From positions 55,165-119,164 of the forward strand of contig JAJKFJ010021707.1 in assembly GCA_027382625.1 (NCBI GenBank): DNA of 64,000 bases, read 5' to 3'. This stretch comes from Tetmemena sp. SeJ-2015. Its lineage: Eukaryota; Ciliophora; Spirotrichea; Sporadotrichida; Oxytrichidae. Shown piece by piece: positions 3,001-60,258 of this stretch. Position 1 is the first letter of the stretch, and the number at the start of each line of letters is the position of its first letter. The position numbers were made by a program, and so were the translations under genes. A model generated the notes under the pieces. The model searched no databases. It had not been told where the DNA came from and saw only the letters and a program-made list of their open reading frames with translations.

Positions 3001-6000
3001 TCTTAAAATTTGTGAATATGCAAGCTTTCCCGGCCTTCAAATGAATCATGATGACGATTAAGACAATAATTTATAATAACTTAGTTAGAAACTGGTGAGT
3101 ATGGAAATTTTATTATAAAAGTATTTATACTCGCAGTGTAATTTCTGATAAATTATAGTTTAGAGTATTTTGCTAATTTCCCCCTCCCCCAAAGTCTAAA
3201 TATTTTATATTTAATTTACTTTTGGTATCCTTTGAAAAAGAATATTTTTTTCTCTTCTTGAGCCCCTAAATTATATCTTACTCTTATTAAATTATTTTTA
3301 TTAGTCCCAATTTAAATTTATTTCAATTTTAAATTCATGCAAGGAATGAATCTTAGCAAACAAACCTAATTAAAACAAAGGATTGAATATGCAAATTTAT
3401 TGACGATTAAGAAGGGAATGCTTCCATTTAAAAAATATCATAAAAATAAAAATTTAATTTAATAAAGTAAGCTTAAATACTAACTGATTTTGACAATAAA
3501 CTTAGCTAAATTATCTAATGATTTGGAAGATAAGTGTTTATATTTGAATTCAACGAAGTTCGAATTTAAAAAGAGCACGAAATCTTATGTGAAACATATT
3601 CATTTAAATCAAATTATCAGATGAATCATAATTTTTCATTTTTATTTCTGAAATAGTTTCTATCTATTGATTATTTTGGTCATCCGGCACAAAACAATAA
3701 ATTTGTTTTTTACAGTTTTTACACTTGTTATAAGTTGAATTGAATCCTCCATTTTTTCTCTAAAGCATAATTAAGTTATTATTAGGGAAGAAGACGATGC
3801 TGATCATAATGAGAGACGCATATCCAAAAAGAAGAAAATTGATTTTCTCTTTTTACAAATTTTCTCAATCTGCTTGATTTTTAAGATGTATTATAACTTC
3901 CTATAAAAAAGGCGAAATACTACTCACTATTTTTAATTTTTGCTTATAAAATATTATTGAATATTAAAACCATATAAAACGTAATCTAATGCGGTATTAG
4001 GAATGTGAACCCAAGGTTGGAAATAAAATAATCCCAAGCTGCCAATTTAGAATAAGAAGTGGGAGGGAATCCAATCATTGAATATTAAATTATCGTGTCC
4101 GATCATTCCCATAAAATAGAAACCAGCCAAATCAATCTCTCTGTGCAACAGCTTATATCCTTAAAAGGTAACATGCAAAGCAAGGTAAGCAAGAGAAAAT
4201 AAATCACAAATTAGTTCAGAGGCAAAGGATTTCGTTCAACAGTAAATCCCAAAAATAATTAGAAAAATTAAGAAATGCAATTTTAAATAGTCAAATTTTG
4301 TCAATTAAATAAAAATAATTTATCTTTTCACTGTTTATTGATTGACTTGATTTTGTCATTTATAATATGGAAAAAGTCTTTTTGGCAAAAATATATTAAA
4401 GACATTTGAAGTAAATTTTGAGTGGAGGACAATTATTTATAGAGGTTTGAGTGGCGTAATGATAAAAAGCATATTTTAATTTGCATAACTGCCATATTCA
4501 GGTAGTAGAGTGGAAAGAGCGCTATACCTCTGTTACTAAACGATGAGAATACCGTAATTTAAACGAAGTGATCTATCCAATCACCGCCTTTCAACAAATA
4601 TATATACAAGAATGTGTTCAGAAATACTCCAGCTGGGTATAAAGCGAAAAATCTTGGAACTCCAAATGAGAAGAAACCTATATAATAGAAGTTCAAAAAT
4701 TAAAGCCATATTTACAACAAAAAAACTTATTTTTATTATAAAGAGACAGCTATTTCAGAGAAAACATTTTATTTAATTTTAAGTGATAAGAGTTATCAAA
4801 GAAAAGTTACAAAGTAATTTCTATCAAGATTTAATTATTTTTATTTGGATTTGTAAAACCAAGTTATTAATAAATTCTAGCTAAGATTCAGAAGTTTATC
4901 TATTTTAAATGATATGGTTATATTATTTATCTATGATAAGATAAGAATTAGGAAAGAGTGGTCTTATCTCAAAATGTCATGAATTGATTAATTTTTGTCT
5001 GCCGCTTTCTTTGTTTTATAATAAATTTTCTAATATAAAACCTTAATTTTTTAATTTGAATCCAATCATGGAAATCGACATATATACCGTGGCTAAACAT
5101 AATATTATATGATAAAATTGGTATCAATACTTAATTGAGCGCCTTAGATATGAGAATTCTAGAATGTGTTTAAGTATATTTGAATTCTTTGCTAATAAAT
5201 GAGAAGAACCTCTTAGTAAAGGAAGGCAGTCCCTTTGATCTGTAGACTGAATATAAAAATAAATTAATGTTGATATGTGTATCATATGCACATATTAACA
5301 TATGAATGAGCAGCTAGGAATCCTGATATCAAACTGAAGATATTATAGGTCAAATACGAATAGTTGATTGCTGGTTATAAAATGTACAAATAAAACAACT
5401 AAAAAGTGCAAGATTCTTAATTACAAGGCTAAATCCTTTGCAATCTATGTATTTTTGAAAAGTTTATTTTTAAAGAAGAGTTCATATATTTAACTGCAGT
5501 AGGAAGGAATTAGTTATTTACGATAGAGGGTTTATCTGATTGCATACCGACATTAGAATTATTAATCCTCTTATCCTATTGGTTGAAATATGCGCATTAG
5601 ATAGTAATACCTCCCCTTCAGCAAATGGTATCTGTTTTAGCTTATCAGATTTCAAGACTCTGATTTTTAGAAAGTGGGAATGCATCTTTGATTGCGATTA
5701 CGATGTTGAGAGTAGTGTTTTTGAGAATGCCATTAACTTTCTAATTTATTTATTCTACTAGATTAATTAAACTCTGACTTGTAATTAAGAGTCGTTTCAT
5801 TTAATATTTCTCATATTCGCGATCAACTATTCGTATTTGACCTATATTGGAAATATATATTCCAATAAGTTAAAGTTAAATGAATTGAATTTGCAAATAT
5901 TTGCCTGTTTGGTGGGTACTATGATAAATTCTAGCCATTTGTAGTTCTCTACTGCCACCTCAAGATGTTCTCTCATTAAATTATAAGACACAAATAATAA

Positions 6001-6215
6001 GCTCTCAGTCTCATATCGAAGTCTCTACCTGTCAGGTACTTCTGATGGTGGCTTATGGAACACATTATCACCAAATAAAACGAAAATACTCGCTCATAAA
6101 ATAAGATATATAGAATAAATACACTTTATATACAATTGTAATACCATGATCGCCATCAAGGCACGAATCATAGTAAAGGGGTCGTTTTTTAATTCAATCA
6201 ATTCAACCTCCAATT
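1..6215 (-). CDS. Locus A: scrambled acyltransferase-3-like membrane protein gene, cut by left edge
   Basis: Read on the minus strand with TAA/TAG as Gln. Blocks in order: N-terminal span IELKNDPFTMIRALMAIMVL (6135-6212); SHHQKYLTGRDFD and ENYKWLEFIIVPTK (5893-6068); FSLISGFLAAHS (5303-5346); FTKRFFSF (about 5197-5250); VPRFFALYPAGVFLNTF and FSSFSNRGIALFPLYYLNM (4490-4675); KLLHREIDLAGFYFMGMIG and FLFQIGSLGLFYFQPW (3990-4190); NGSIPFLIV (about 3410) continuing as IHLKAGKACIF (about 3050); SDNNIVCREKTVSNIL (about 1090-1260); FESQNDLVLLNLYKYSHS (780-895); an acidic block (300-430); VLQTAIKYKYGF (20-250). The His-bearing first span, SGFL motif, RFFxLYP motif and the C-terminal E/N-x-P span seen in paralogues resemble acyltransferase-3 (nrf-6-like) proteins; that assignment is inference. 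AT-rich pointer-bounded segments separate the blocks. No start ATG found near 6215. Confidence 0.6.
3052..3400 (-). other. IES in locus A, third conserved position
   Basis: Direct repeat TGACGATTAAG at 3052-3062 and 3401-3411. Joining gives NGSIPFLIVIMIHLKAGKAC. There is no GT...AG intron boundary at the junction. Confidence 0.7.
4664..5196 (-). other. IES of locus A splitting the FTKRFFSF motif and carrying the displaced MDS
   Basis: Bounded by AAATGAGAAGAA at 4664-4675 and 5197-5208. Joining gives FTKRFFSFGVPRFFALYP. Counterparts: B, CTAAATGAGAA at 15761-15771 and 16684-16694; C, AAATGAGAAGTA at 23239-23250 and 23573-23584. The repeat itself encodes the FFSF or YFSF residues, so the motif appears twice in the germline copy. 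Loci D and I have the motif uninterrupted. Confidence 0.78.
5058..5091 (-). other. Displaced micro-MDS of locus A
   Basis: Encodes GIYVDFHDW, which belongs in the middle of the KLLHRE...DWIPSH block about 1 kb downstream on the minus strand. Pointer GAATCCAATCAT occurs here (5058-5069) and at 4067-4078. Pointer CGTG occurs here (5088-5091) and at 4094-4097. Swapping the 15 bp between the target pointers for this segment gives GMIGHGIYVDFHDWIPSH in one frame. Confidence 0.8.
5971..6008 (-). other. 38-bp IES in locus A
   Basis: Bounded by direct repeats TCTCAT (5971-5976 and 6009-6014). It is 38 bp and so shifts the frame. Excision joins TGRDFD to MREHLEVAVENYKW, whose length and pattern match loci C and D, which have no insert here. 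Confidence 0.75.
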
Positions 6216-8628
6216 TTAAGATTTGAGAAGAAAAAATAAGTTCTAATAAATTATTATTTTATTTTAAGTATAGTTTAGTTTAAATTTTCATAAAATAAGA
6301 GAACGTTTACATTTTTTAATAAAGTCGAATCAAAATTATCTTTTCCAAAATGTAAATAAACTTTTGTTTTAATTATGAAATGGTAAAAATAAATAATCAA
6401 ATATAAGAAAGATCAAATAAACTTAGGACTTTAAAAAATTTATGATAAAATATAAATTAAATATATTTTATGAATTAAAATTTGCATTTAAAATGGCTGC
6501 GCCTACTTTTTCTCCTCAGTGGGTCTGGTCTCTGCTATTTTCATTATATTTAATTAATACCTGGGTGATATCACAGAGGGAAGATATCCACTGGTCTGTT
6601 CTTAATTAATACTCAAGTATATCTCACAAAAATAACCCTATTTTTTCTGATAATCAAAAAACAGATTAAAGAAATTATTTGATAATAATTTATGTTAAAA
6701 TAACTATGGGATTTTCATTTAAGATTTAATATTAAAGATTTAGAGATGTTTTTAAATTGTGAAATGTGAAATTAATTCGTCGTGGTGCGTCAAATACCCT
6801 CGCCTAAAGTAAATAGTTTTTAGTTGGAATTATATCTATTAGATTATAACTGTTCCTTAACCGATTAGTAAATTCACACAAATAGAGTGTAGTTTTAAAA
6901 TTAGCTACGCCTTCATTTTGCAAATGTACTAATCGGTTTTGGCACAGTTATAATCTAATATATAGAATTCAAACTAAAAACTATTTACTTTAGGCGATGG
7001 ATATTTGACGCACCCCAACGAATTAATTTCACATTTCACAATTTAAAAATATATCTATCTATAAATCTATCATATAAATACAATTTATTATCGTATTTTT
7101 GCAATTATAAGCGATAAATTAATAGAAAATAATCATAACAATAAATAATGAATTCTTTCTTGATAATTTAAGGGAAAGTAATTTCATAAATAACTGAGAT
7201 GTGTTAGAATTTAACATGAAATAATGCTCCTTCCATTTTCAGAATTTCTTTTAGAGTATTTACTTTTGAAATCTTCAATTAGTATTTGGAGAGAGTTGAA
7301 ATGAAAACCTAAAAGTTTAATTATGACTAAATAATTATGCAATAGGAATATCAGAAACTATTTCTGGATAAGCTTAATTTATTTTATTTATGAGCTTATC
7401 CATTATTTAAGAAAATTAAAATAATTATATTTTAGAAATTGGGGTTTGTTTAGTTACCTGTTGCATAACTTCTAATCTTATTATAGGTAAGTTCTCTCTA
7501 ATATTTCCAAAAAATGATAATTGCCTACCCTACTCAGAATTAATGGTTCCTCTTTTGCATTTTAAGTTTCTAATCTTTACGAAATAATGATTAGTGATAA
7601 CCAAATGATTTATTAAAAATTTTAATTAATTTTATTGATTTATAATTATCTTTTATTTTATTCAAATTTAGTACTAAACTATCAACTCAATAATTCCTGA
7701 TATTTAAATTAAATATTCGAGGTATTACTTTAAATTATCAATAGGTAATTCTTGTGTTTAGGCTTTCATACTAAATTTGGAGATTTTATTATAAAACCTG
7801 AGAAAATAAGAGTATCCATGGCCGAAATCGCGGAACCTCTTCAATTTTTTAATCTTATAATAAATTATATTGAAGTTTTAATAAAAAAATATGATAGCCA
7901 TATTCTTTGGCAATATTAAAAATAAAGAGATAGGCGGCTTCTTTTTCTCTTTTTTAAAAATGAGGATCTCAAAAAGATTTTGATAAAGAGATATATTTAA
8001 ACATAAATCAAAATTATTTGGCTTGATATACACTTATCTTTAAAGTAAGGATATAAATTTAAAAGAAACAAGGAATAGTCAGAAATGAATCCCACTATTT
8101 TAACTTGTGCAGACTTTACTGCTCAAATTTGATCGACTTAGATTATGAATTATCATGCTAGGAACTTTAGAGATTGGGAAGATTGTTAAAAATATTTAAT
8201 GAGAAAGCCGAAAATAATACGAATTAATTAAAGACGTTTAATATTGGAATTCTATATTTAACATATAATTTAATTAGATTAATAAGGATTTATTTTTCAT
8301 TATTTTTTTAAGCAAGAGAAAAGAGCGTTGAGTATTTTAGCAACTTAGGTATTCTGCAAAGGATTGATAGAATTTATAAGGAAATTATAAATTAAGTTAA
8401 GTGGAATTCCTAATGACTTTTGTTAAGTAGATCAGATGTATTATGATTCTTTAGTGTATATTTAGTTATCAAAGTAGACAAACTTTTAAATAATCATAAT
8501 TTAAAAGTATTTTTATGAAATAATGTCGTAATACACATCTTTAAATAATATTTAGTTTAGAAATTATAAAGTAAACTTATTTTCAATAAAGCTTGCATTT
8601 CATTTTTAAATCCATTATAAAGATTTTT
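6215..8628. other. AT-rich interval between loci B and A
   Basis: I see no protein-like reading of length here. The first MDS of locus A, with its start codon, could lie here but was not found. The interval holds the large palindrome at 6736-7068. Confidence 0.4.
6736..7068. repeat. 330-bp imperfect palindrome (snapback element)
   Basis: The left arm (6736-6870) matches the reverse complement of the right arm (6927-7068) with few mismatches. A spacer of about 56 bp separates them. Shared segments include AAAGTAAATAGTTTTTAGTT with its complement, and TTATAATCT repeated. No open frame is present. It could be a foldback/MITE-type element or a long hairpin. Confidence 0.75.
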
Positions 8629-11600
8629 TTAAAAAAAATTTATTAAATAATAAAACGCGCTCATGGCAAGAAGATAAAGAACGAGTAGAGCAAATATTTT
8701 CTTCCACTTGGGTTCTTCAAACTTCATTCCTCTGACCCAGTTTCTAAGAGGTCGCTGGATTGGTTCATTGATTAGGGAGTCGTATAAGAACGACAAAATC
8801 ATTATTACGATCATGTAGTACACCACGGCAGAGATTAGGAAACATAATATTGTCATCAATACTATTAATGTTAAGACAATAAATTTAAAAGCTTTTTCTT
8901 ATTCAATAATACATATTTTTTAATTATAAAATTTCCAAAGTGAGCTGGAGTTTTCTTAAGCTTTTTATTGTATGTGTGTGAGCTTATGTCTATTTCTTAA
9001 TACGATTATTGATTAACTAATAAATAAATCTATGTGCATTAAGTCTTTAATAGCAACTTAACTTATTTTCTTAAATATATTTGGAGTATATTATTGCTTT
9101 TTTCTTTGCCATAGCTAGGTATCCTATCTTCTTCTTGATAACTTTCTTGTATTCATTATCAGTCTCTATTAAGTCTTTTTTGAACTGCTCAATTCAATAG
9201 AGATATTTTAACACTTCATTTTTTTCATTCAAATTTACCTAAATGGCTTGAGGGAATCTCTGAGTGAGATTAGTCTTCTTAAGATATCCATACTTGTATT
9301 TAACGGCAGTCTGTAGAACTCTTAGTAAACAAAATATATGAAAATATTCAAAATATAATAAGGAATGAATGCATAATTTAACGTGCTCGGCTGTTCATAT
9401 TCCTTATCTTCTCTGTCGTCTTTTAAAACGAGCATATCCTAGAACAGAACTAAGTCGTCTTTAGTGTCTAAACTGTTTCCTTATAAACATTTTAAATGTA
9501 AAATTTAATTAAAAAGGGTTAAAAGTTAAGTTTATGTTGATAGATTGACTCTCACATCCCCCATTCAAGCTCCATATATTTAAGAAACTCTAATTTATTT
9601 TCGAAGAAAAAATGGTTTTTATAATTAAGAAATAAATGAGGCTATATTTTTTAAGATAAATATTATGGGATGAATAGGAATAGACGATCACTGATTGTAA
9701 AAAAAGATATTATTGTTCAAATACGAATCGATGATTTAGGAAATAAAATTCACAAATTCAAATTGATTTAAAATAGTTGTTTAGCTAATATTAATTTCAT
9801 TCTTTAATTTAAAAACAATTTTAATGAAAATGGTTTTTGAAGCAATTGACACAACAGCTGCAGCTCAAGAAAAGATGAAAGCTTTCAACATTTGTGTAAA
9901 TACTAAAAGCAGATATAAATAATGTTTGCAAAATTATCTGTCAAGGTAAGACAAAATATTTATGAGTGTAATAACTATTGATATCGTAGAGTGAATGTAT
10001 GCATGAATACAGCTAAAGAAAAGTTAAATGCAACTACTCAAATTCTCGAAGAAGATTGATAAACTAACTCAAGCACTCAAAATTCAAATCAAAAGCAGAA
10101 GATGACAATTAGCAGTACTCAAATACTTTTCAGGTGTCTTTAAGATGTGACAATAAATGTATTTGGAAAATAAATTGCACGATAACCTAATGCTATCTTC
10201 ACCATATTAAAAACCCTTACTCATTTGGTAATTATTGCTATATCCTAAATCTTGTTAGTTTTTGCTATAAATTATATTTCAATTACGAAATGGTGGTTTT
10301 CAATATATACAGTTGAACCGGTATGCTCAACCTACCGCCACCTCGGCCTACTTATTATCTACTGTTCCATTTAATACTCATAATTTCTACTAATTCTTTG
10401 CATTTCAGATAACGAGAATTGATTGATACATTGAGAATATATTTATATCAGATGTTTTTATCTCTATTAATGGAATTTGGTATTATTGTCAATTCCGTTA
10501 ATAATTTAAATTTTTGAATATGCAATCATATTTTAGCAATTATGGCTAAAGAAAATTTTAAACTAAGATTATAACTTATTTTTTTATTTCTATAACTATG
10601 CTTCTCAAAATATTTGAATTGCTTTTAAGATTTTAAATTTTGTCTAGAATTGATATAAACTTATCTTATAAATCAAAACTTAAAGATTTTAATTAAATTG
10701 CATTAAAAACTAGAACATTATATTATTATATTTTGATAATATAATCTATATTTGGTTTTGATTTTGGTTGAAATAGAGTAGTTGACCTCTAGTAGAGTTA
10801 GTGTATTTGTATATATTCAAAATTGCCAAATCGGTTTCTAATTCAAAAGTTGAGGGGACTCACATTAAGATATATTCATTTTTATTGAAAATTTATTTTA
10901 AAAACCATTCTTTAAATATTTTTTTATTTATGATTTCATTATATGAATTAATATCTTTGTCGAATATACTACATGCATAGTTTATATTCATTAATTATAT
11001 GGATTCGCTCTTTCAGTTAAAAGAATATAAATTCTAACGCTCAACATTATAATAACTTCAGAGCTTTTAAATTATAAAATTTATTGGGACGTGATTGAGA
11101 ATATCAGAAACTGATTTCTCTCTGCAAATAATATTATTATCAGAAATGAACTTGGCCATTTATTTTGATTATAGAGCTTGATCAAGAGGGTTCATTTCAA
11201 ACTTTATTCCTTCCTCAATAGAACCAAGGCCCAAATATTCTCCAATATTGAAAGGGTTATAAGTGGATATTTATCAATATATAATCATTTTTATTCTTAA
11301 AATTAAATTATAAAATCAGAAGATGTTCAAAGAGTAATAAATTTCTGCCAATGATATTCTTCATATCATTTAAGGAAACTAAATTCAATAATTTTGTCTC
11401 TGTTAAAAAATTAATTCATAGTTTTGAGTGCACAAGCATAAAATTTACATTTCTGAAGAAAAAAAAGTTTAAAACAACTTGATAGATTTTATTTATAGTT
11501 TGAGAGTATTTTAATTATTCATATCCGCATCCAATTAGTCTGTGATAAACTGACGTCATGAAGTATAACTTAAACTAATATTTGTTTAATAAATGATTTT

Positions 11601-14600
11601 ACCTTAATTTTCTTATAATACAAAGGCTTCTCTCATTTAGCAGAATAATTAAACAATATATTATAGGATGAATACGAATGCTTAATCAGAGGTAACAAAT
11701 ACCATAAAATAACTGGCAAATATTAGTAATTGGGATTTGATTCTGAAGATTACGAATTTATAAGGACAAGTTTAAATTAGCTTATTAGAAATTAGGGATG
11801 CATAATTATACCCTTTTATCTTTACTTGAGTATTTTCAAACAGTAAATCCTCCCTTCGTTCAGTTGTGTGCATTCATTTTATCAATTGGGTTTCCTCTCG
11901 CCTCACATCATATTCTAGCACTTTGTGCATATTGGTTGATCTAAGTAAGCACTTTACAAAGCTCTCTGAGGTTTTACTTGCAAGCCATTGGTCACATTTC
12001 AGTTGCTTGTGCTTCCCATGCCTTTTCTGCTTTCTCTTCTTGTGTATACACAGCATAAGCTAAGTTTAACGAAAGATATTGGAGATATCTACTCCTAGGG
12101 AGTTTTGCTTTAAGAATTCAAAAGTACGCAAAAGATGCCTCGCCAATTCGCACAAATGATATTTTATGATTTTTTAAGTCTCAATAATTTTTATTACTTA
12201 TATATTCTGAGCATGTTTCGCACTTGTCTCTATTGCACCTCTGAAAGTTGATGCCTTCATTCGATTCTGATGCTTTCTGGTGTTTCAAGACTTGCCTCCC
12301 CGAATGATCCCCTGAGATAGGATTCAGCTTCTAGCATATAAATAAACTTCAATGCTTGTTGAAGTCGCCGCCCTTCCTTTTACTGACTCCCTGAGCTGCC
12401 CACCTGAAACGCCATTGCTCTTTCTCATCGTTTTCAAAATCTTGGCCGAAGGAGAGTTAGGGTTCATCGCCTATCGCTTCACTAAAGACATTTTTTTGTT
12501 ACCCTAAGTTTCTCTATCCTGATTGCTGATTTCTCTAAACATTTCTCTCCTCTAATTGACTAGGGACCTTCTCCTGCTGATGTATAGTCCTTCTCAAGCC
12601 TTGTTTTATCTTGTATTCGAATCTATATCTGCTTATTCTTGAAAGCCAAAGAACTTGTCGAGTCTTCTCACTGCAAAGCGTTTCAGTCTGTACTGTTTTG
12701 GATTGGTGCGAATTGGCGAGGTCTTATCATACTTTAGCGTTCTTTCAAGCATTTGCTGCAAGCTATTCCTAACTTCTTGCATATAATTTTCTTTCCTGAC
12801 CAATGCAAGCAGCTGTACCAAAGCGGGATGTTGTGAGTGAAGCCCATCCTGTAAAAGAACCCAGTGGGTTTAGATTCTTCATTTAGACCTGCCACTAGCG
12901 TCATCCTACTGCGGCTGTACACTACCTGCAGGAGCTCTTTTGCATAACCCTTTCCTTGAAAACCACTCCTGGTTGCCATATGAAATATATAGAAGTTCAA
13001 GTCGTTTATGAGCTCACCAATCAAGAAGGCTGCTGCAAAAACAGGCCCTGTAGTATTGCGCGCTACCACCTCCCTCTTGAAAGCAATATGCAAGTTTGAG
13101 AGTACCTTCGGCTCCAAGTTAGAGTATTCTCCTTGATCCTCGAAAAAACTTATGGATTTGCGTCGCTGTCTTTCCAAATCATCAGAGATTGAATTCGTAT
13201 CCTCTGCTCTTAAAGGAGTTTGAGATGTCCAAGTTGCATTTCGGTAACTTTGACTTTGAGAGCTTGTCACTGAAGGTCAAGTACTACTACTCAATTTCTT
13301 CTATTAGGAACGTTCAATTTTTGAATTTCAGATATCAAAACCCGAATTATAATTATAGATTATTAATTAATCAGTCATTATTTTTAAGAAAAATTAAATA
13401 ATTCACTATAAAGCATTCGTATTCATCCTATATTTATGCTAAAACTCTTTTCAATAACTCTATTATACTAGATATTATTATATTTCTTTGCTTCTATTCG
13501 CAATCTAAATGATATATCATAATTTTTTTAATTTATTAATGCACTAAAAATCATTAAGTTATTTAATTAAAATTTCATTCACTAATCCAATCCAAGAGAG
13601 TAAATAAGATTTCTAAACTATCAAATAGACTAATCCAATTTTATATTCTTAAAAAAAAATAATTCCTATATTTAATGCTTTATAACTTTCAATTTATTTA
13701 ATTATCTTAAATTAGTAATTAAATATAATTTATTTGCAGACAGTCTTTGACAAAATTTTTGTGAAGATAGAGAAGTGGCTAATAGAAATTTATATTTTAA
13801 AAAAATTATACTTCTGTGGAACATAATTAACTTGTATATTTGTGTTAGAAAATATTATTTTGCGAAATACCTTAAAATGAAATATTTAGTCTTTAGGTTA
13901 AATGAGAAACGTGCCTCTTGATTATAGCTTAATTGTTAATATATTTGAAGAAAAATAATTTCTATTGAGGTAGAATTTTAAAAATAATATTAAGAATAAA
14001 TTAAATGTGTAAGTGATTTTAAGAGTTTTAAATTTTACTTAATCTATACTAAAAATTGAAATTTGGAATCCTCTTTATACATCATTAAAAGAAATATAAA
14101 CTTAGATATCAAGTTATAAAATCATGCAAGCTAACTCTGAATTTTTTTAATGAATGTGTAGAATTTTAAATGTAAATTTAGTATAAAAAATAAGATTTCA
14201 AGTAACAAATTGAACATTTCTTACAGGTAAAAGCAATTTTCTTGTGTAAAATCTAAATTATTTTATGAATGTAATGTTTATTGATTTTAAAGTCCTATTT
14301 ATTTTAGTCTTAGTCTCTAATTAATCTTGGATATGAAAAGTGGATTTTTGAAAATAAGGAGCTGATTTTAAATTAATTAGCAAAGATTCAATAAGATTAA
14401 ATTGATGACAATAATTTTTTTATATTTGAGTAAATTAAAAGAGATTAAATAAACTTTTATAAGTATACAAATGCATTTGTTTAATATAGTCTGCTGTACT
14501 ACATATGAAATAAATGAAATTTTGGCAATCTTAGCAATTATTATTTCTGAATATGCAAGTCTTTCCAGCCTTTAAAATAATCATGATGACGATTAAGAAA

Positions 14601-17600
14601 ATAAATTAAAGCAAAATCATTGTGAAAACTGAAAATTGATTATGAATTTAAATAATTTTATATAACAAAATAATTTATAGATAATCAGGAATCTTAGAAA
14701 ACCAACCAATTTTAAACAGAGGGTTGAATATGCAATAATACAAATCATTTTATCATGACGATTAAGAAGGGAACACTACCATTTAATAAAAATAGTTTTA
14801 AATTTATTTTAATTATTTAATTGTATAAATCAATATAAATAAGAATGCTCCTCTGAAATAATTTTGATTGATAATGAATTCTAGTGAAATAAATTTCAAC
14901 AATAGAAAGAAAAGATCATCTTTATGCTAAAAATAACCTTTAAAAGTAAGATCTCTGACTTAATTTTGAGATCTAAACTTATTTTAGAAATATAAAAAAA
15001 ATTAGCTTAAATAAAGGAATTTGAACTCCATTTATATAATTTGTAATCTTATTTAAAAACCATAGACTACATATTCGAGAGCTCCTTCAGGTATTATGAC
15101 CCAAGGTTAGAAGTAGAATAATCCCAAGCTGGCAATTTAGAATAAGAAGTGGGATGGAATCCAATCATCAGATATTTATTGCTCTGGCCAATCATGCCCA
15201 TAAAGTAAAATCCTGCCAAATCAATCTCTCTATGCAAGAGCTTGTAACCTTACACTGTTACATGGAGGGCAAGATAAGCAAGAGAAAAAGTGCTTTTAAT
15301 ATTCAAATTCAAGTGCAAAGGATTTCGTTTAAGAGTAAATCCCAAAATTTTATGAAATAAAATTTAATTTGAGAATTAAATGATGATTAAATTTATTAAG
15401 GATAAAGTTAAAATAAATTTCTACATTAATATCTCATTGTTTTTTAAATAAAAATAAGTGACAAATATAATTTATTTTTATATTTGAATACTGATAGAAA
15501 TATTTAAAGAGAATAAATATTTTTTTATATTTTGAGTTATGAGTGGAGTTATGATAAAAAGCATAACTTTTACAATATTTACTTATTTTAACTGCCATAT
15601 TAACGTAATAGAGTGGGAATAGTACTCTACCGCGATTACTGAATGATGAGAATACCGTAATCTGAACGAAGTGGTCTTGCCATTCACCTACTACTTAATA
15701 ATTATTTAGAATGTGTTCAGAAGCACTCCAGCCGGGTACAATCCGAAAAATCTAGGCACGCTAAATGAGAAATTTATATAGTTATTATCAAAATAACTAA
15801 ATTAGAAATCTTATAAAATAACTATTTAAAAAACTATAAATTTTTGATTTTAAAGAATGAAAGTTATTATAGTTTAGAATGTATTTAAAACACTATTTAA
15901 AATTATAATAGGTCGTATCAAGATAGAATTTGACTTTCTTTTAAGCAGGTGCCTATTAGATAATCGCTTTAAAAATAAATATTACTTCTGATTATAGTCA
16001 TCCTTATACCACTCTTAATTATAGATATATTATTGGTGATGATTCACATTATCATTAAATAAATATATTACATCAGTAATGAGAATTCTAAAAAACGATT
16101 TCAGAGAATTTCTACTCTTCATAGAATTTTTACATTCTCTAATATGGGAAGACATTATTTAAATTGAAGATACTATAACTTTCTCGCGTTTAATAAGTTT
16201 AATTGAATTTGAAATAAATTCTATTATAAGTTAAAACTCTCATTTAAAATACGACAAAAATAATAAAATCTTTTAAAATATAAATTATATCTAAAATATA
16301 TTTTAATAAGTTTTGAATAGCTCTACAGGGACCTTTATAAATTAAAGGGAAGATAATTTAGCTCTAATGATTGTTATTGTAAATCAGATGATAATATGCA
16401 AGAATGAAAAACTTTAGTTTATAGATTGTAATGAATTAGGAAAGAGTGATCATTTTTCATCGTCAAGTGAATTTCGGATTCTGAATTGAAAGTCATTTTC
16501 TTTGCTGCTTTATAATAAATAGATATTTAATTTTCCATTTAAATTTGAATCCAATCATGGAAGTCGACATATATACCATGGCCAAGCAAATAATAATTTG
16601 GAGTTCCAAACTTGATTATTGATAATGAATTCACCGCCTTGAGTATGACAGTTTTAGAAGGTGTTTAAATTTCATTTTTACTACTAAATGAGAAGAACCT
16701 CTTTGTGAATGAAGGCTGAGCCTTTGACCTGTATAACGAATAATTTAATATCTGAAATATATTTTTCCCACTTTAAAATTAATAAAATACTCTTTAAAGA
16801 ATAAAAGTTAAAGTAGTACTATCTTTATTGGAGAACTTTAATTAAGAAAATATCTTTCAAAAGCAATTTATAAACAATATAGTCAAATTTAAATTGCATA
16901 TTATAAGCTTTATTCTTCTAATTAAATGAATGCGCAGCAAGAAATCCTGAGACCAAACTGAAGATATTATTGAATCTATATATTTGTAGATTTAAAAATT
17001 TTGTAATCCAAATTAGCAAATATTGGCTTGTTTGGTGGGTACTATAATGAACTCAAGCCATTTATAATCCTCAACCGCCTATTCCATATAGTCTCTCATT
17101 AAATTACTATAAATAAATAATAAGCTCTCAGTCTCATATCGAAGTCTCTACCAGTCAGGTACTTCTGATGATGACTTATGGAACACATTATTAGCTAATA
17201 AAGCATATTTTATTTCATTAAAATTTCTTTTTCAAACATTTTAAATCTAAGAATATAAAATTCTGATAATATAAGATGAATATGAATGCAGAATAGGAGG
17301 TTCGATATATTTGAAAGAAATTAAAAAGTAGACTTTTATGAAGATCCTGATGTTAAGATAATTAACGCCTAAATGAGTCATTTTTTACTCCAAGGTTCGA
17401 ATCCCAAAGGTAAAACGCTTTTTGTAATTTTTTTTGGGACCATTATATTTAATCGCAATAGTAATAGCAATCGTAAAAGTAAAAATAATTAAAAAAAATA
17501 GTTTAGATGAAGACGATGATGATGAAGAAAATTAATTAGAGGAAGAATAGTTTGAAATGAGGAAAAATTTGAAAATAAATAAGGAATGTTCATAATAATA

Positions 17601-17860
17601 ATAATCAACTCTGATATAGTAAGGCTCAAAAGTACGCAAAAAAAGATCTAGGCAGTTATTTATCTTCAAATGGCTATTTAAATTTAATGATCAGATCATT
17701 TCTACATTTCTTTTTTGCAATCACTAAAATCCATTCATATTCTTCCTATAATAATTGATTATTTTATTTAAAACTGTAATACCATGATTGCCATCAAGGC
17801 GCGAATCATAGTGAATGGATCGTTTTTAAATTCGATCAATTTAACCTCTAAGAATTACAG
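8629..17860 (-). CDS. Locus B: scrambled acyltransferase-3-like membrane protein gene
   Basis: Paralogue of A with the same blocks: LIEFKNDPFTMIRALMAIM (17780-17860), SHHQKYLTGRDFD (about 17165), IFSLVSGFLAAHSF (16925-16975), FTKRFFSF (about 16690), SVPRFFGLYPAGVLLNTF (about 15715-15771), FVQITVFSSFSNRGR (about 15650), KLLHREIDLAGFYFMGMIG (15190-15250), NGSVPFLIVMI plus ILKAGKTCIF (14786 and 14560), ISDNNIICREKSVSDIL (11075-11230), FELETDLAILNIYKYTNS (10740-10870), an acidic block (9400-9490), VLQTAVKYKYGYLKKT (9075-9345) and a C-terminal span FLYDSLINEPIQRPL (8629-8859). Joining at pointers removes the apparent frame breaks at 15160 and 15765. One in-frame TGA remains near 9195, at a Tyr position of A. 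A 1-nt shift near 15670 also remains. The locus is unusually long because a GNAT gene lies inside it (12.6-13.3 kb). Confidence 0.6.
12594..13276 (-). CDS. GNAT-family N-acetyltransferase
   Basis: The reading frame has a Ser/Gln-rich N-terminus followed by a compact GNAT fold signature: VFAAAFLIGELINDLNFYIF (strand), then FHMATRSGFQGKGYAKELL, which carries the acetyl-CoA pyrophosphate loop Q-G-K-G-Y-A, then PTGFFYRMGF, a typical terminal motif. After one 1-nt shift near 12825 the protein continues with a basic tail (QYRLKRFAVRRLDKFFGFQE) to a TGA at 12594-12596. Such enzymes transfer acetyl from acetyl-CoA to an amine; the substrate is unknown. No ATG starts the frame, so the first MDS may lie elsewhere. 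The gene sits inside locus B, between its LKAGK and CREK blocks, on the same strand. The same frame stays open beyond the stop to about 11874 with few TGAs and a Lys/Arg-rich segment at 11874-12056, so the true end is uncertain. Confidence 0.72.
14586..14754 (-). other. IES in locus B, third conserved position
   Basis: Direct repeat ATGACGATTAAGAA at 14586-14599 and 14755-14768. Joining gives NGSVPFLIVMIILKAGKTC. Confidence 0.72.
15761..16683 (-). other. IES of locus B splitting FTKRFFSF
   Basis: Pointer CTAAATGAGAA at both ends (15761-15771, 16684-16694). Excision joins FTKRFFSF to SVPRFFGLYPAG in frame. It contains the displaced micro-MDS at 16547-16585. Confidence 0.76.
16547..16585 (-). 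other. Displaced micro-MDS of locus B
   Basis: Same displaced coding piece as in A. Pointer GAATCCAATCAT at 16547-16558 matches 15157-15168; pointer TGGCCAA at 16579-16585 matches 15185-15191. Insertion gives MGMIGHGIYVDFHDWIPSH and cures what otherwise looks like a 1-nt deletion. Confidence 0.82.
17094..17131 (-). other. 38-bp IES in locus B
   Basis: Orthologous to the locus A insert: same length, same position and same TCTCAT pointer (17094-17099 and 17132-17137). The interiors are similar but diverged. Confidence 0.75.
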
Positions 17861-19274
17861 TATAAAATATAAATTTTTAATTATTTGAAACATTTCAATC
17901 AAGAATATATATTTATTAAATGAAATAAGTAAGTTCCTATATGTTTCTAAAGAAAATGCTCAAATTAAATTATGCTTAAATTTTTACTATTCTTTTTAAT
18001 AATTTTATAAAAATTTATATTTATTTTCAAGTATAAAATATACATATATATACTAAAGGTCGCTTACTAACAATTAGACAATAATAATTTTACATTAAGT
18101 GAATGCACCTCATATATTTTGTTTGCATTTAATTGTTATAAAATATTCTTAAATGCTCAGAATTAATTATCATAATTGTATTAAATTGCCAATAATATTT
18201 ATATGAACTTATTTGAATAAATTTTGGTTTGTAAATGGTTGCACCTGTTTCTTTTCCTAGGTGGGCTCAGCGGGCTTGGAGTCAGTACGAATCATTATTT
18301 GTTATTAAAGTATAAAGTTCCTAACCTTTGCTAAGATATACTATTGTCTGCTATTAATAAATTTGCTATCGCACTAAATACCACTTATTTTTTCTGATAA
18401 AATAATTTTATTTAAAAATATATAATAAATGCAATTTCCATTTTCATGATAAAATAAATCTCCGATACCTAATATTTATATTAAATATCTTTAAAAAGTT
18501 AAAAATTAGATCTTAGAATTCTTCTGATTAAATTAAGAGGCAAGAGAAAAGAGTATGATGTACTTGAGGATTTTTGGAACCCTGCATAGGATTTGATTAA
18601 AAAGATAATTATATTTTAAATCCTCCCTCCTCTTGAGGCTTGAGTAAAATATAGAAGGAAATTATAAGGCAGCTTTCAAAATAATTGAAATTTTATGTAG
18701 CATTTTATTGTTACAGAGAAAGTAGAATCACTTATAAGAAAGTTAATTATCTCTCAGATAACGATCTACCTGCATGCTTTTAAAACGCAAGAAAATTAAA
18801 TAATTACAATCATTTTAATATTTCTAAAGTTAAGAAATACCATAATCGTAATTAAAAATAAATAATTTATATATAATCTAAGCTGTGGAATATCCTCAGA
18901 AATTATAGCGTAAAGCATCTTTAATCCAAAAAAAATTAAAAGTCAATAACTTACCATAAATGGCCTAGTTTTTGTATGTATAAGGAATTATTTTTTATAG
19001 AAAGAATAACAATTCCACCTCAAAAATTATACAAAAATCCATTCAAAAATTTATTGAATATCAAAAATTAGTGAAGATATCAAATTTATTTAGGTTTTAA
19101 ATTTTTATCTTCAATATAATTGGTATAAACCTTATTGTCAAAATAGACAAACACAGTAAACTAAAATATAAATGAATATAACCATATAAATTTTTACATT
19201 AAAGAAACTATAACTAAAGAAAGTTTTTTATTATAAATTTAGAATAACCTTTGGAAAGTTAAAATTCTTTCGTT
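17860..19274. other. AT-rich interval between loci C and B
   Basis: No conserved block or convincing reading frame recognised. The 5' end (start codon) of locus B is expected near or in this interval. Confidence 0.35.
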
Positions 19275-22200
19275 TTATTTTAAAGATAAACTTTTTAATT
19301 TGAACACACTCATTGCGATTATATATAAAACTATTAAGATGAATATTTTCTGCCATTTTTTGTGTTCAAATTTCATTCCTCTTATCCAAGTTCTGAGCGG
19401 TGCCTGAATTGGATCGTTGATGAACCGATCGCAAGAATATGCAAGGATCATAATTATCACAAAGTAGTAACATACTGCAGTCTTAAGGAATGAGAAATTT
19501 ATTTTGAGATTGTAATCTTTCTTGGCCATGTCTAGGAACCCAACTCTTCTTCCAATCCCATTCTTTGCCTCTTCATTACCGAAATAAAAAATATAAAAAA
19601 TTTATTCACAAATTCTTCCATAAATATTCAAGAAAAAATTATTAAATATCATAGTTGTAAATAATTTTAGAAACTATAATGTTTAACATTTGCAAATGAG
19701 TAATAATTGCTTATAAAATTCAATTTAATAAACTTAATAAGTCCATAAAGATTTAATAAAATAAATTATAATTTCTATACACACCAAATCATTTTTTTAA
19801 TTGCCTAATTTTAATCTAAAAATGAAACAAAATAAAAAAAATTTGCTTCATTTTTATAATTTTAGGAATATCAATAAAGACTATATTTTTCTTGATCCTC
19901 TTTAGGATTTTAGGAACTTTTTTCTCCAGTTTGTTCTATTTTTAGAGACAGTACTTTTGCCTAACTACTGATTAAAGCAGCCTCACTAATCCATGTAAAT
20001 TCCTTAATTTTTTAAATAACAATTTTATGAGTTTAAGAATGAAGGGGTCTCTAATTAAGAATTCTATCTATCATCTTTAATTATTAATTTAATTTTAGGG
20101 AGTTCTAATAAACCATATATTAAAATTGCAATTTGCTACTAATGTGACTTCAAGTTCAGTTAGCAAATTGCATTTTATTGACAACCTATCAAAATAATAA
20201 TTTCCAGCTATTTTGATGATTCTTAAAACATTTAGATCTAAAATGTTGAAATTGTCCCACTTTTAGCTTTTTTTATTCCACGGTATTAAGATATTCGCTT
20301 GATGTTATTGCTGATATGAATAGCCATACTATTTCGGAAGCAAGCAAAAAAGAGTTAGTGGGAGGCTTCTAACTTCAATATATTGGTCGGTAAAACCACC
20401 TTCATAAGGGCTGAGTGATAAACATTATAGTTTCTACCCATCTTATAATATCACAACTCCAAATAAAAGAGATTCTATTTTAAATTGTCTCTCAGAGAGA
20501 ATCGCTCCAACTTGGGAACAATTATAAAATGACCGGGCACATTTTTTCGTTTTTTGGCAATCTTCGGTGCCACTTCTTGGTTCCTATATTCTTATTTCTA
20601 ATTTTCTAAAATCTTTAATTATTAATGTATCGGAATACATTATCTTTTGATTTGTTGTTTTGTTTTTAGCCTATTCTTTTCTTTTACAGGCTAAATCAAA
20701 TTCAATTATTTAAAGTCTATACGAAGTTTAAATCGATTTACTGAGTCAATATTAACCTTTTAACTCTCGCAATTAAGATTAATCCCCTATTCTTCACAAT
20801 AATTAAACTTAGAATCATATTTTAGTTGTTGATTATGATAATTATTATTCTGTTCGGATTATGAGCTGAAAAATCTTGTCTGACCTCTTTTAATTGAGAT
20901 TAGAATCTGATTTTTTTTATTTTATGCTCAAAAGTTTATACATATTCTTATTCATATTTTTCTGGTCGAATTTGAATTCTTTGTCTTTTAATTTAGAATT
21001 TCTATTTCTAAAATAAGGGGAGCAGTATTTATTTCGTTTAATTTAAATTTCACTTTATTCATTACTAATTTGAATTAAGAACATTTTTGAAGGTTTTGAT
21101 TATTGTCAAAGTAAAGAATCTAAGCCTTCTCTGACTCTGGATAGCATTGCATATCCAAAAGAATGAGATCATTCTGCATTTCAAATGCTGAAGGGACAAT
21201 AACTTTTTATAAATATAATATTTGGTAAGCTATAATACCTCCTAAAATAGATAGAGTTATAATGAATAAAAGATTAATCTATTCGCAATAATAGGGGCAC
21301 AATATATCAAGCCTTTTTATTTATTTAAGATAATTTAATTTGTAGGGACTTGACTCAAGATGTCAAATTTGGTTTTCTCTCTGCAAGAAATATGATTATC
21401 TGTTATATATTTAGAAATATTCTTGCTCATAATCGCCTAGTCTATATATTTAATTATTTATGCCTATTTATATGAAAGTCAAAAGGGCTATACGACACTT
21501 GAGAGTTCTAAAGTTGATCTCCTAAATACCGGTGATAGAATAATTCGCTCACAAAATTTCCCCTCACAATATTTTTGTGAATATAAAGCAGGGGTTAAAA
21601 GAAAGTTTTTACTCAGAACATTAAATTAAAATTCATTATAATTAATCACGCTTATTTTAATTAATCATGCTTAATTTAATCAAAAGGATTTTCAATACAC
21701 TTATGGTGATAAAAAAATAGATAATTTTCTTATCCTTTGTTGTTAATTTATACTATAAGTGATGGTATTAGCATGCCTTTTGATAATAGTTTATTAGACC
21801 ACGTATGAAACAAATGAAAACTTATTAACTTTTTTAGGAATTAATTTCCAAAGGAATTTAAAATCAAATTGAAATTGGACAATTTAACTACACTAAGAGA
21901 ATTAATTTTATGAAGGGCTCCCTGTTTTAGTTCTATATTTCTACCTCTTCAACTTGCCTTTTCTCTTAGTAGAATTACAGACTCAGAAACTATCTAGAGT
22001 TATGAAATCTAAAAGATCTCATGAATAAATCACATATAGATGAGAAGTGTCAATTTTGCTATAATCTATAAAATTAATGGTGAATGATATAATTTGAATT
22101 ATTCTGTCTGAATTATATTATTTAGATATCAAAATTGAGAATATACACCACTTATCTATAAATTTACAGTCTAGCCAATTTTATAACGAAGGAGGGTATT

Positions 22201-24258
22201 CTAATAATAGTTAGGAATTAAGCATCCCTAACGGGCATATAATACTTAATCGATTTAAAGAAATTCACAGGCGTAACTCCTTGATCAGTTGTGCCACGTC
22301 ACCGCGAAAGCCCATCGTGAGGGTATTCTAAATTATAAAGCTTTTTAGTTTAAAACTAAATAAAACTTAGCAATCTAAAATATTTTTTAATATTTCCATG
22401 CCACAGATATATGCAATTCTTTCCTGCCTTAAGTTGAATGAGGAAGAAGTGTAATTAATTCAATTTAGTTACTTTAATAAAATATGGAAGATAGATATTA
22501 AAATAATTGTTGCAAAACACTCACTATACTCTTTTAGAATAATTCTAGTATTTATATCGATAATTTTAATAAAGACCACGGCCTTTTCATAAACTGAGTT
22601 TAATAAAAAAAGAAATGATACAAATTGGATATAGCAATCTTGGCAAAAACACCAACCCTAAATAACGGGTTGTAAATGCAATCTTAAACTTTCAATTTTC
22701 AAGGAGGAAGAAGACTATAATAGGGAAACTGCCTTAAATTATAACTTATTATCATTATTTAAGCCAGTGATAACATACTCGAGAGGGTCATCGATGATTT
22801 TGATCCAAGGTTGGAAGTAAAATACTCCTAAACTTCCAACTTAAAAAATAAAGTGTGATGGGATCCAATCATATGAATATAAGATGAAATCATTATCATT
22901 GGCCTAGCAGCCCCATGCAATAAAATCCAGTTAGGTCGATTTCTCTGTGGAGTAACTTGTATCCTATCGCAGTAACATACAAACAGTAGTAGGCAAGAGA
23001 AATGATGATTCATTTCGAGGTTGGCAAAGGATTTCGTAAAGAAGAGGAGTGAGTAAAGTTTGAATAAATGCCATGTTTAGGTAATAAATAGGGAATAATA
23101 CTCTTCCTCTGTTGCTGTAGGAAGAAAACATAGTTATCTAAACTAAGTAATCCCTCCAATTGCCTCAGTATTTATTCTATTTTAGAACATATTCAGCAAC
23201 ATACCAATTGGGTATATCGCAAAGAAGCGTGGGACAAAAAATGAGAAGTACTTATATGTGAATAATTTTATAATTAAATTTTTGGGAATTAAATTTCATA
23301 TTCTTAAGGAATTCGGGATCATTTCTTAGAAGTCTGTGGATTTAAGGTTCTCTGAAATCTTTCTTTTCTCATATATTATAAAGACAGTTCTGAAATTAAT
23401 TCTGAGTTAAAATATTTCTAAACAAAATTTGGATCCAATCATAGAAGTCGACAAAGAGGCAGTGGCCTTTAATAATTATGCAATAATAAAAGTTATAAGA
23501 AACCGTAAATTCTACTCGCCTCCTTCTACGTGCGAATTTTAGAATTTTAAATTGAAATTATGCAGCTTATAGAAATGAGAAGTATCTCTTTGTGAAAATT
23601 GGTTGCATTCTATTTCTATAGAGCGAATGACTTAAGTTGATTTGAAGAAAAAAAAATTATTTTAAAATTTTATTTAAAAAAAATAAGATTGAACTCTGAA
23701 GATTTCTTGTAAATGTTTTTCTTTTTGTTTTATTTAAATTCCATATCTGTATACATATAAAATGAATGAGCAGCTAAGAACCCAGAGATCACACTAAAGA
23801 TATTATTGCAAAATTAATTACTGATTGATCTAATTTAAATTCAGACAAATGAAGGATATTAGCTTTCTTGGTAGGCCGACATTATGCAGTCTAGTACAGG
23901 AAAATCAAGAACCACGGTATTCAACAACATTTTTAGATTTTGATCCTTGTCAAGGCCGGTAAAGTATTTGATGTGATGACTCAATGAACACATTATTTTA
24001 AGAAAAAGTTTAAATTTCATATTGTTTATAATTATCTTTAAGTAATATGCATTTCAAAAATAATGGAGAAATACGAGAGCCTATTTTACATAGCAAAATA
24101 AGTAACTGTCAATGAGATATATTTTTCTCTATTAAAATTTGATTAAATAATACAAGTATTGCCATAAAGGCACGTATCATTGAAAAAGGGTCGTTTTGTA
24201 ACTCAATGAGAGGAGTCTTTTTCTTTTCCTCGGTCGGTTTCATGTTAACCTCTGTCAT
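19275..24258 (-). CDS. Locus C: scrambled acyltransferase-3-like membrane protein gene
   Basis: Third tandem paralogue, with a visible start ATG at 24258 followed by a Lys/Glu-rich N-terminus and LIELQNDPFSMIRAFMAI. Other blocks: SLSHHIKYFTGLDKDQ (about 23960), FTKRYFSF (about 23580), VPRFFAIYPIGMLLNMF (about 23200), GYKLLHREIDLTGFYCMGLL (22905-22970), DWIPSHFIFQVGSLGVFY (about 22810-22870), LIQLKAGKNCIY (about 22420), ITDNHISCREKTKFDIL (21345-21430), FEMQNDLILLDMQCY (21130-21190) and the C-terminal segment RRVGFLDMAKK leading into a span with CDRFINDPIQAPLRTW (19275-19570). In C the MAKK motif is contiguous with the last span, which fixes that span as the C-terminus of the family. It lacks the 38-bp IES seen in A and B. 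Confidence 0.6.
22205..22318 (-). mobile_element. tRNA-like SINE, copy 1
   Basis: A 114-bp block, about 93% identical to copy 2 by eye. It is flanked by a 13-bp direct repeat GAGGGTATTCTAA (22192-22204 and 22319-22331). On the minus strand it begins CACGATGGGCTTTCGCGG and contains TGGCACAACTGATCAAGG, which fits a tRNA A box. A weak B-box-like AAATCGATT lies about 22 nt downstream, and the 3' end is AT-rich. It is noticeably richer in G+C than its surroundings. Confidence 0.65.
22440..22703 (-). other. IES in locus C, third conserved position
   Basis: Direct repeat GAGGAAGAAG at 22440-22449 and 22704-22713. Joining gives GSFPIIVFFLIQLKAGKNC. The codon position is the same as in A and B, but the pointer sequence and IES length differ. 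Confidence 0.7.
23239..23572 (-). other. IES of locus C splitting FTKRYFSF
   Basis: Pointer AAATGAGAAGTA at 23239-23250 and 23573-23584. Excision gives FTKRYFSFFVPRFFAIYP. It contains the displaced micro-MDS at 23431-23468. Confidence 0.76.
23431..23468 (-). other. Displaced micro-MDS of locus C
   Basis: Same architecture as A and B with its own pointers: GGATCCAATCATA at 23431-23443 and 22861-22873, and TGGCCT at 23463-23468 and 22900-22905. The joined product reads GLLGHCLFVDFYDWIPSHF without a break. Confidence 0.82.
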
Positions 24259-30240: not shown

Positions 30241-30254
30241 ACCAGTCAATAGTA

Positions 30255-34115: not shown

Positions 34116-34119
34116 GAAC

Positions 34120-60250: not shown

Positions 60251-60258
60251 AGATTTAA

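Follow-up and report, generated by a model that had tools for sequence, protein, structure and literature searches.

The window, a stretch of DNA of 64 kb, contains a tandem family of acyltransferase-3-like membrane-protein genes. A related protein, P0001, scored 38.8 bits against PF01757 (Acyltransferase 3; cut-off, 31), and this domain was matched in five of the eight rows of alignment A1 with E values up to 0.01; no match to PF01757 was obtained with the first rough copy-A query by itself. P0001 showed 46% identity over 98% of that query, and was again the sole match in further protein searches with P0001 and alignment A1. In-frame TAA and TAG were found at the FLFQ and FQPW columns when copies A, B, and C were compared with P0001, indicating a code in which both specify Gln. 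The initial annotation had recognized three scrambled paralogues. Copies A, B, and C were indeed scrambled, but the actual number of copies mapped on the contig was seven (A, B, C, F, Zero, DE, and G), all of which were scrambled in the region of the VDF piece (MDS7). The features are listed in Table 1.

The germline order of the core was 1-3-7-2-4-6-8 in A, B, and C, with MDS5 outside the core. When the pieces were numbered per copy, the order was 1-3-5-2-4-6 in F, 1-3-5-7-2-4-6-8 in Zero, and 1-3-2-4 in G. DE2 had the core order 1-3-5-7-2-4-6-8 plus one extra displaced 3′ piece. In all of these copies the odd pieces lie in one cluster and the even pieces in another, as defines an odd-even spirotrich gene.

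Table 1. Pieces, junctions, and eliminated segments of the scrambled copies in the window
Feature	Position	Strand	Remarks
A MDS1, last part (YRSKGLPSFTKRFFSF)	5197..5253	-	out-pointer TTCTTCTCATTT at 5208-5197
A micro-MDS3 (FQNSHIQG), 31 bp	5140..5170	-	pointers AACACATTCT, AAGGCG; absent from the initial annotation
A micro-MDS7 (GIYVDFHDW), 34 bp	5058..5091	-	pointers CACG, ATGATTGGATTC
A MDS2 (FGVPRFFALYPAGVFLN)	4609..4675	-	jump alignment
A MDS4 (GGDWIDHF...ITPLLNEILC)	4222..4590	-	two ordinary IESs inside
Ordinary IESs in A MDS4	4482-4469; about 4449-4245	-	second placed by eye
A MDS6 (FSLAYLALHV...KLLHREIDLAGFYFMGMIGH)	4094..4199	-	
A 15-bp IES, MDS6/MDS8 gap	4079..4093	-	
A MDS8, start (DWIPSHFLFQ...)	3969..4078	-	
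A MDS6/MDS7 junction	4097-4094/5091-5088		CACG
A MDS7/MDS8 junction	5069-5058/4078-4067		ATGATTGGATTC
MDS5 (LCRIPKLLKYSTLFSLAY)	8309..8365	-	3′ of B's last coding piece; candidate for B (rejoined frame), fits A too
B MDS1, last part	16684..16741	-	out-pointer TTCTCATTTAG at 16694-16684
B micro-MDS3 (QNCHTQGG), 31 bp	16629..16659	-	
B micro-MDS7 (GIYVDFHDW), 39 bp	16547..16585	-	
B MDS2	15705..15771	-	
B MDS4	15314..15688	-	ordinary IESs inside; low end approximate
B MDS6	15185..15288	-	
B 16-bp IES, MDS6/MDS8 gap	15169..15184	-	
B MDS8, start	15059..15168	-	
B MDS6/MDS7 junction	15191-15185/16585-16579		TTGGCCA
B MDS7/MDS8 junction	16558-16547/15168-15157		ATGATTGGATTC
MDS5 (CRVPKILKYIILFSLA)	18538..18594	-	put in C's rejoined frame; candidate assignment
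C MDS1, last part	23573..23630	-	out-pointer TACTTCTCATTT at 23584-23573
C micro-MDS3 (QNSHVEGG), 27 bp	23518..23544	-	
C micro-MDS7 (CLFVDFYDW), 38 bp	23431..23468	-	
C MDS2	23179..23250	-	
C MDS4	23028..23166	-	
C MDS6	22900..23002	-	
C 26-bp IES, MDS6/MDS8 gap	22874..22899	-	
C MDS8, start	22763..22873	-	
C MDS6/MDS7 junction	22905-22900/23468-23463		AGGCCA
C MDS7/MDS8 junction	23443-23431/22873-22861		TATGATTGGATCC
DE even block (aa 127-152, 162-192, 212-232)	31464..31779	-	
DE odd block: LYRSIQQPSFVKRYLSF.., FSAFSDR.., HCIYVDFNKWIPS	37581..38253	-	last at 37622-37581; clearer on contig C4398 (L045)
DE odd-block relic of MDS6, decayed (NYFFHNNFQLLEYDLVGFYC)	37636..37695	-	
F even block (aa 138-190, 205-233, then from 241)	42090..42389	-	
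F micro-MDS (NILVDFNRF), counterpart of MDS7	44240..44271	-	pointers GCCAGAAT, ATAGATTT
F displaced micro-MDS, aa 190-205	44474..44521	-	
G displaced 90-bp MDS (REFQFSGYYLSGILGYDMFLDFKSLIPSH)	60819..60908	+	pointers 11 and 9 bp
G MDS preceding this piece in protein	62195..62472	+	in-pointer TTATTCTGAACA
G MDS following this piece	62558..62656	+	

The sole inputs to a protein-to-DNA alignment allowing jumps between identical short repeats were P0001 and the regions of copies A, B, and C. In agreement with the initial annotation, the piece encoding GIYVDFHDW or CLFVDFYDW (34-39 bp) was absent from its own place in each copy and was located farther 5′ in the gene, at a distance of about 0.5-1.4 kb. 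The direct repeats described at its ends (4 and 12 bp in A, 7 and 12 bp in B, and 6 and 13 bp in C) were recovered to the base, and the gap lengths were as claimed. The interpretation as a scrambled micro-MDS with pointers was supported by the junctions and by displacement of the same piece in further copies. MDS7 had been regarded as a single displaced piece; it was displaced, but so were MDS2, MDS3, and MDS5, MDS3 being a second displaced micro-MDS of 27-31 bp in A, B, and C. A C-terminal piece at 8841-8653 was rejected as a displaced piece of A, since its translation places it after B's last pieces in normal order. A further locus (I) had been described as linear. If this locus is copy G at 59161-62943 (+), which is our guess, the VDF piece is contiguous with its neighbors there as described, but it forms part of a displaced 90-bp MDS, and the block that comes before this MDS in the protein lies downstream of it.

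Reinsertion of the piece was in frame, as proposed: rejoined A, B, and C each comprised 179 codons (537 nt) with no stops and aligned with one another without indels. The pS and pN values of the A-B rejoined frame were 0.57 and 0.08, respectively, and within MDS7 A and B differed by one synonymous change and nothing else. The rejoined frame is under selection. Furthermore, P0001 has both micro-MDSs in the predicted order, with MDS7 exactly where predicted. In copy A the scrambled reading scored 83.8 bits versus 81.0 bits for the linear reading, a small gain, as the linear reading of A is by chance in frame too; the linear reading of B was frameshifted, and that of C ran into TGA. In the organism's own assembly germline forms only were found, with no somatic (macronuclear or cDNA) forms, and telomere repeats were no commoner than the control (21 vs 24). 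The pieces would be joined, and the gap DNA eliminated, during formation of the expressed gene. In Oxytricha, rearrangement is guided by RNA templates that the old somatic nucleus supplies, and joining may be guided likewise here.

In comparisons of A with B, the alignment of MDS3 alone did not exceed shuffled sequence because the pointers have shifted register, and the identity of A's 15-bp gap IES to its B counterpart was not above shuffled sequence either. The long IES after MDS7 gave 0.632 (shuffled maximum, 0.588); therefore, the similarity of A and B extends beyond the coding pieces.

MDS5 was first located 5′ of A and B. The pointers of the piece at 8309-8365 measured 11 and 14 bp with B and 10 and 14 bp with A, and those of the piece at 18538-18594 measured 7 and 12 bp with C and 7 and 11 bp with B. 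The right-hand pointer alone points to the 3′ owner (15 vs 14 bp in A, 14 vs 11 bp in B, and 12 vs 10 bp in C). By summed pointer length, 8309-8365 was the best for all three hosts: A had 24 bp with it versus 21 bp with L044:9355-9302, whose left pointer CTTTGC was read by eye and was not returned by the anchor search, and C had 20 versus 19 bp. An MDS5 lying between neighboring genes may have more than one host.

A repeat of 4-13 bp was present at 37 of the 37 junctions tabulated; since the jump program demands a repeat at each junction, these repeats weigh less than the shuffle test, in which the upstream DNA was replaced by dinucleotide-shuffled DNA 100 times. In seven tests (MDS7 of A, B, C, and F; MDS3 of A, B, and C) no shuffle of the 100 reached the real score, and in the eighth (Zero) one of 100 did. 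Jumps with low scores where conservation is weak (aa 1-60 and 172-205, the tail of L055, and all of L048) were discounted as filler, as were those in much of the window's DE outside the listed junctions.

The VDF piece was also displaced in Zero, F, and DE, and was enlarged in G; it was the sole segment upstream in all seven copies. For residues ~130-139, the source was the upstream block in five copies (A, B, C, F, and Zero) and the downstream block in the other two (DE and G). Residues ~112-130 were in the downstream block in A, B, and C only, and residues ~152-160 in the upstream block in Zero and DE only. Four linear paralogues (C1300a, C1300b, C1300c, and C3886) fell outside the scrambled clade with 99/97 support in a tree that omitted the partial row C2147d as well as the C2147 copies on L052, which are near-identical; P0001 was placed within the scrambled clade, at a fork drawn open. 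On the 10-kb contig C1588 (L055), an A/B-like copy was similar through MDS1, its similarity ending at a run of G, and neither MDS3 nor MDS7 was found there.

We consider, with a probability of about 0.93, that the stretch is germline (micronuclear) ciliate DNA carrying a tandem acyltransferase-3-like family whose core is odd-even scrambled, most likely through local duplication and decay. The family is consistent with the duplication-and-decay model published for odd-even genes, given together with odd-even patterns in the relevant part of PMC9797194. In the order of events that we infer, the core of a linear ancestor would most likely have been duplicated locally, its two copies giving rise to the odd block (upstream) and the even block (downstream), and every segment would later have decayed in one or the other. 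It is very improbable that the displaced pieces are instead unused leftovers of partial gene duplications in genes that are linear or pseudogenes. Copy A can be read linearly across its gap and DE holds a genuine decayed relic, as such leftovers would predict; B and C are not readable linearly, however, and the pieces complement the gaps, carry matching repeats at both ends, recur in seven copies, and show a synonymous excess once rejoined. The DE relic itself, of MDS6, aligned only with a two-residue gap, and the even block contains a complete MDS6.

That relic also bears on whether the odd-even layout came about with no duplication, through stepwise recombination of MDSs and IESs at short repeats rich in AT or through invasion by IESs, which we regard as unlikely. 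Both models are described in the part of PMC9797194 that concerns origins, and most IESs had no residual similarity to the MDS that they replaced: the 17 relic tests yielded 15 negatives and two positives, the latter being one IES seen in two contigs. The relic in the DE odd block nevertheless scored 56 against a shuffled mean of 24.6, and in neither of the two contigs did any of 1000 shuffles come as high. The length of the MDS was correlated with that of the replaced IES over all 27 pairs (Spearman 0.65), although paralogous pairs are not independent and the odd MDSs alone gave no significant correlation (rho 0.29, p 0.29, 15 pairs). In addition, paralogues draw segments from opposite blocks at shared cut points. 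Among A, F, Zero, DE, and G, 27 cuts agreed within 3 residues versus 13.6 expected, and 7 of 10,000 simulations were as high; in this simulation A represented all three of A, B, and C, cuts were spread evenly across aa 98-250, and the two MDS5 cuts set by hand in A were counted. Acquisition of the same scrambling by A, B, and C independently after duplication can almost be dismissed. As annotated initially, their pointers have drifted in sequence and length, which independent events would explain; however, A, B, and C share one germline order, their five block-switch positions coincide to within 0-2 residues, and cut positions are common to more distant copies. Pointers of Oxytricha and Tetmemena likewise keep their positions with mostly changed sequences, according to the comparison in PMC9797194. 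The proposal that the layout predates the duplications of A, B, and C was supported.

Under the duplication-and-decay origin, it is possible, at somewhat less than even odds, that the array reflects reciprocal resolution of an ancestral core duplication and that MDS5 may serve more than one host. Redundant copies would have stayed usable through several gene duplications, with each paralogue losing a different half and the VDF piece being fixed first. Such a process would resemble reciprocal gene loss after whole-genome duplication.

The genes resemble the odd-even genes of Oxytricha, Tetmemena, and Euplotes woodruffi in the account of them in PMC9797194, with odd and even blocks, short pointers, a link to local duplication, and pointer positions conserved while the sequence changed. 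The evidence presented there is genome-wide and between species, whereas here seven paralogues lie on one contig and some segments come from opposite blocks. A direct precedent for A, B, and C is the pair of tandem paralogous scrambled loci of Oxytricha in PMC5940158, with 75% nucleotide likeness and one rearrangement diagram; that pair has seven scrambled MDSs and is not reducible to odd-even, whereas the present maps follow the odd-even pattern and vary from one subfamily to another. Alternatively processed Oxytricha paralogues, as far as PMC4684698 details them, similarly involve segmental duplication and conserved piece borders (there within 0-3 bp). Pieces are common to two products in that case, whereas the MDS5 at 8309-8365 is a candidate piece for more than one host.

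The origin of scrambled genes is debated among duplication with decay, stepwise recombination, and IES invasion. This family allows the models to be compared in one genome, with linear relatives outside and nested maps of 3, 5, and 7 junctions, aided by paralogue-specific block choices and a recognizable decayed piece, and it is relevant to the published ratchet in which scrambling only increases. The genes belong to the known odd-even type, and their value lies in an informative comparative series: with similar cut points but different spare copies of some pieces, the family looks like a fossil record of the origin of scrambling.

The window (C2783:55165-119164, in an assembly of 146 Mb and 5213 contigs) carries recurring related coding pieces along its length, which belong to paralogous copies of an acyltransferase-3-like gene family. 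TAA or TAG is found at conserved glutamine positions of these pieces, and both codons are reported to encode glutamine in hypotrich and oligotrich ciliates (PMC10901763). Contig C4398 (L045 and L046) holds another version of the stretch with C, DE and part of F. It shows 83-91% identity to the window in the 1.4 kb compared, and represents either a segmental duplicate or a haplotype that has diverged.

Positions of gene copies and of individual pieces (window coordinates unless a locus or contig is named)
Feature	Position	Strand	Remark
Copy A	~6268 down past position 1	minus	
Copy B	~17929 to 8653	minus	
Copy C	~24258 to 19302	minus	
Copy DE	pieces 38253 down to 25382		
Copy F	45388-41764	minus	
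Copy G	59161-62943	plus	
Copy Zero	L044		just outside window
VDF piece, F	44271-44240		
VDF piece, Zero	L044 8159-8131		
VDF piece, DE	37622-37581		clearer on C4398, L045 4274-4315
VDF piece, G	60819-60908		within this 90-bp piece
MDS5 candidate	18538-18594		3' pairing with C
MDS5 candidate	8309-8365		3' pairing with B
MDS5 candidate	L044:9355-9302 (C2783:54466-54519)		3' pairing with A
Decayed MDS6 copy, DE	37636-37695		L045 4238-4267

A protein search with the rough copy-A product yielded a sole relative, P0001 (291 aa, Acyl_transf_3, 46% identity over 98% of the query). Its order is LLHREYDLISFYCLGMAGH-SFYVDFYD-YIPSHF and LILNML-QNCHVEGG-DWQDYF; therefore, VDF has its place after GH and before IPSH, and QNCHVEGG after LN and before DW. 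P0001 and the A, B and C regions were subjected to a custom protein-to-DNA alignment, in which jumps were allowed between any two positions with a common short repeat. The junctions that the initial annotation had proposed in A, B and C for MDS7, the displaced micro-MDS encoding VDF, were recovered to the base, together with three more scrambled junctions per copy. When the upstream DNA was replaced by dinucleotide-shuffled DNA (100 shuffles each), the real MDS7 score was reached by none in A, B, C and F and by one in Zero; the score of MDS3, the second displaced micro-MDS, was reached by 0 of 100 in each of A, B and C. The 37 tabulated junctions carry repeats of 4-13 bp, which the method demands. 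Thus, the shuffle test, not the presence of a repeat, bears the weight. The paralogous loci are not independent samples. A search for somatic sequence in the organism's own assembly found none. Oxytricha pieces are described as joined at pointers of 2-20 bases under the guidance of long and small RNAs (PMC5940158, PMC5513065); by analogy, the pieces here would be joined at pointers with RNA guidance.

The germline order of A, B and C is 1-3-7-2-4-6-8, with pieces numbered by protein order; MDS3 and MDS7 measure 27-31 and 34-39 bp including pointers, and MDS5 (CRxPKxLKYxxLFSLA) is situated away from the core. The right-hand MDS5 pointer fitted best when each gene was paired with the candidate 3' of its own last coding piece, whereas summed pointer lengths preferred 8309-8365 for all three hosts. 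Because these fits disagree, any assignment of MDS5 is tentative, and one MDS5 may serve more than one host. Under the 3' assignment, rejoined A, B and C each comprise 537 nt (179 codons) with no stop and no indel among them; under the other, A and B are likewise in frame. Over the rejoined codons, A and B differ with pS 0.57 and pN 0.08, and within MDS7 by one synonymous change only. A-B identity was 0.82 in MDS7 (shuffled, 0.50) and did not exceed shuffled sequence in the 15/16-bp gap (0.50 versus 0.51). MDS3 aligned alone (0.553; shuffled maximum, 0.629) did not exceed shuffled sequence because its pointers moved. The long IES that follows MDS7 did exceed it (0.632; shuffled maximum, 0.588). 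These two results count against a simple coding/non-coding contrast.

The jump alignment showed that the VDF piece is displaced also in F, Zero and DE, and inside a larger piece in G. Numbered per copy, the maps are 1-3-5-2-4-6 in F, 1-3-5-7-2-4-6-8 in Zero and the DE2 core, and 1-3-2-4 in G. Locus I, previously regarded as linear, is probably G: the piece is indeed contiguous with its neighbours, but its MDS is itself displaced. All scrambled pointers of the partner are kept in the counterparts of G on C353 (L047, 3 of 3) and of C on C4398 (L046, 5 of 5). The distant paralogues C1300a and C1300c are linear through the core region without a jump, and C1300b and C3886 are linear with one ordinary IES. 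In a 12-row tree, these four split from the scrambled copies and P0001 with support of 99/97; branching within the scrambled clade had moderate support only.

An A/B-like copy on C1588 (L055) is 94.6% identical to A up to the end of MDS1 and stops matching just after it, at a run of G (L055 5796, GGGGGGGGGGG); no further part of that core was found on C1588, MDS3 and MDS7 included. A MITE-like 0.35-kb inverted repeat (6720-7080) has at least 82 assembly matches at 75% identity or more, with arms and strands both counted and 40 of 103 candidates scored; one lies on C1588 near an A/B-like copy. Copies of a dispersed ~115-bp repeat (22205-22330 and ~30130-30242) are 95-100% alike among 40 scored of 604 assembly candidates, and no tRNA or Rfam match was obtained in the window. 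The odd (upstream) and even (downstream) blocks of DE are separated by a 4.36-kb insertion (33077-37432). Close to either end it bears 40-bp inverted repeats (95%; 33097-33136/37370-37409), and it has CCCCAAAACCCC at 33081-33092; C4398 lacks it and has 14 unaligned bases in its place. The insertion is reminiscent of the TBE transposons of hypotrichs, but four ORFs gave no transposase against Pfam. In DE, an IFFLVQLKAGK piece directly follows MDS6 (31443-31410; L045 from 5771), and a 12-bp repeat (AATATTCTTCTT) pairs it with the end of a piece ~6 kb further 3' (25415-25404). It is a further displaced piece.

Odd-even genes and their link to paralogy have already been published, as has the conservation of pointer positions while the sequences of most pointers have altered (PMC9797194). 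Likewise, an Oxytricha tandem paralogue pair, 75% alike, has one common scrambled map (PMC5940158), and paralogues with piece borders conserved to 0-3 bp are a known case (PMC4684698). Duplication followed by alternate-segment decay is a model that PMC9797194 credits to Gao et al. 2015. Three results speak for such local duplication and decay here. MDS length correlated with that of the IES it replaces (Spearman 0.65, 27 pairs from non-independent paralogous loci; odd MDSs alone, 0.29, 15 pairs, not significant). Cut positions in A, F, Zero, DE and G, again non-independent paralogues, agreed within 3 residues in 27 pairs versus 13.6 expected, a count equalled or exceeded in 7 of 10,000 simulations. 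Finally, a decayed MDS6 copy (NYFFHNNFQLLEYDLVGFYC) stands in the DE odd block immediately before the VDF piece, the intact MDS6 coming from the even block. In neither of two contigs did any of 1000 shuffles match the relic, and the remaining 15 relic tests were negative. The relic appears to be left over from the duplication of the block in an ancestor.

Block choices derived from the mapped junctions differ between the tandem paralogues. For residues ~130-139, copies A, B, C, F and Zero draw on the upstream block, and DE and G on the downstream one. Residues ~152-160 have an upstream source in Zero and DE only, and residues ~112-130 a downstream source in A, B and C only. We consider this the feature most worth pursuing; it was not met in the literature consulted, which is no claim to priority. 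Under duplication and decay, if lost segments never return, redundant copies would have outlasted several gene duplications before reciprocal loss. A similar picture could also arise through gene conversion between the blocks or through small duplications that occurred repeatedly.
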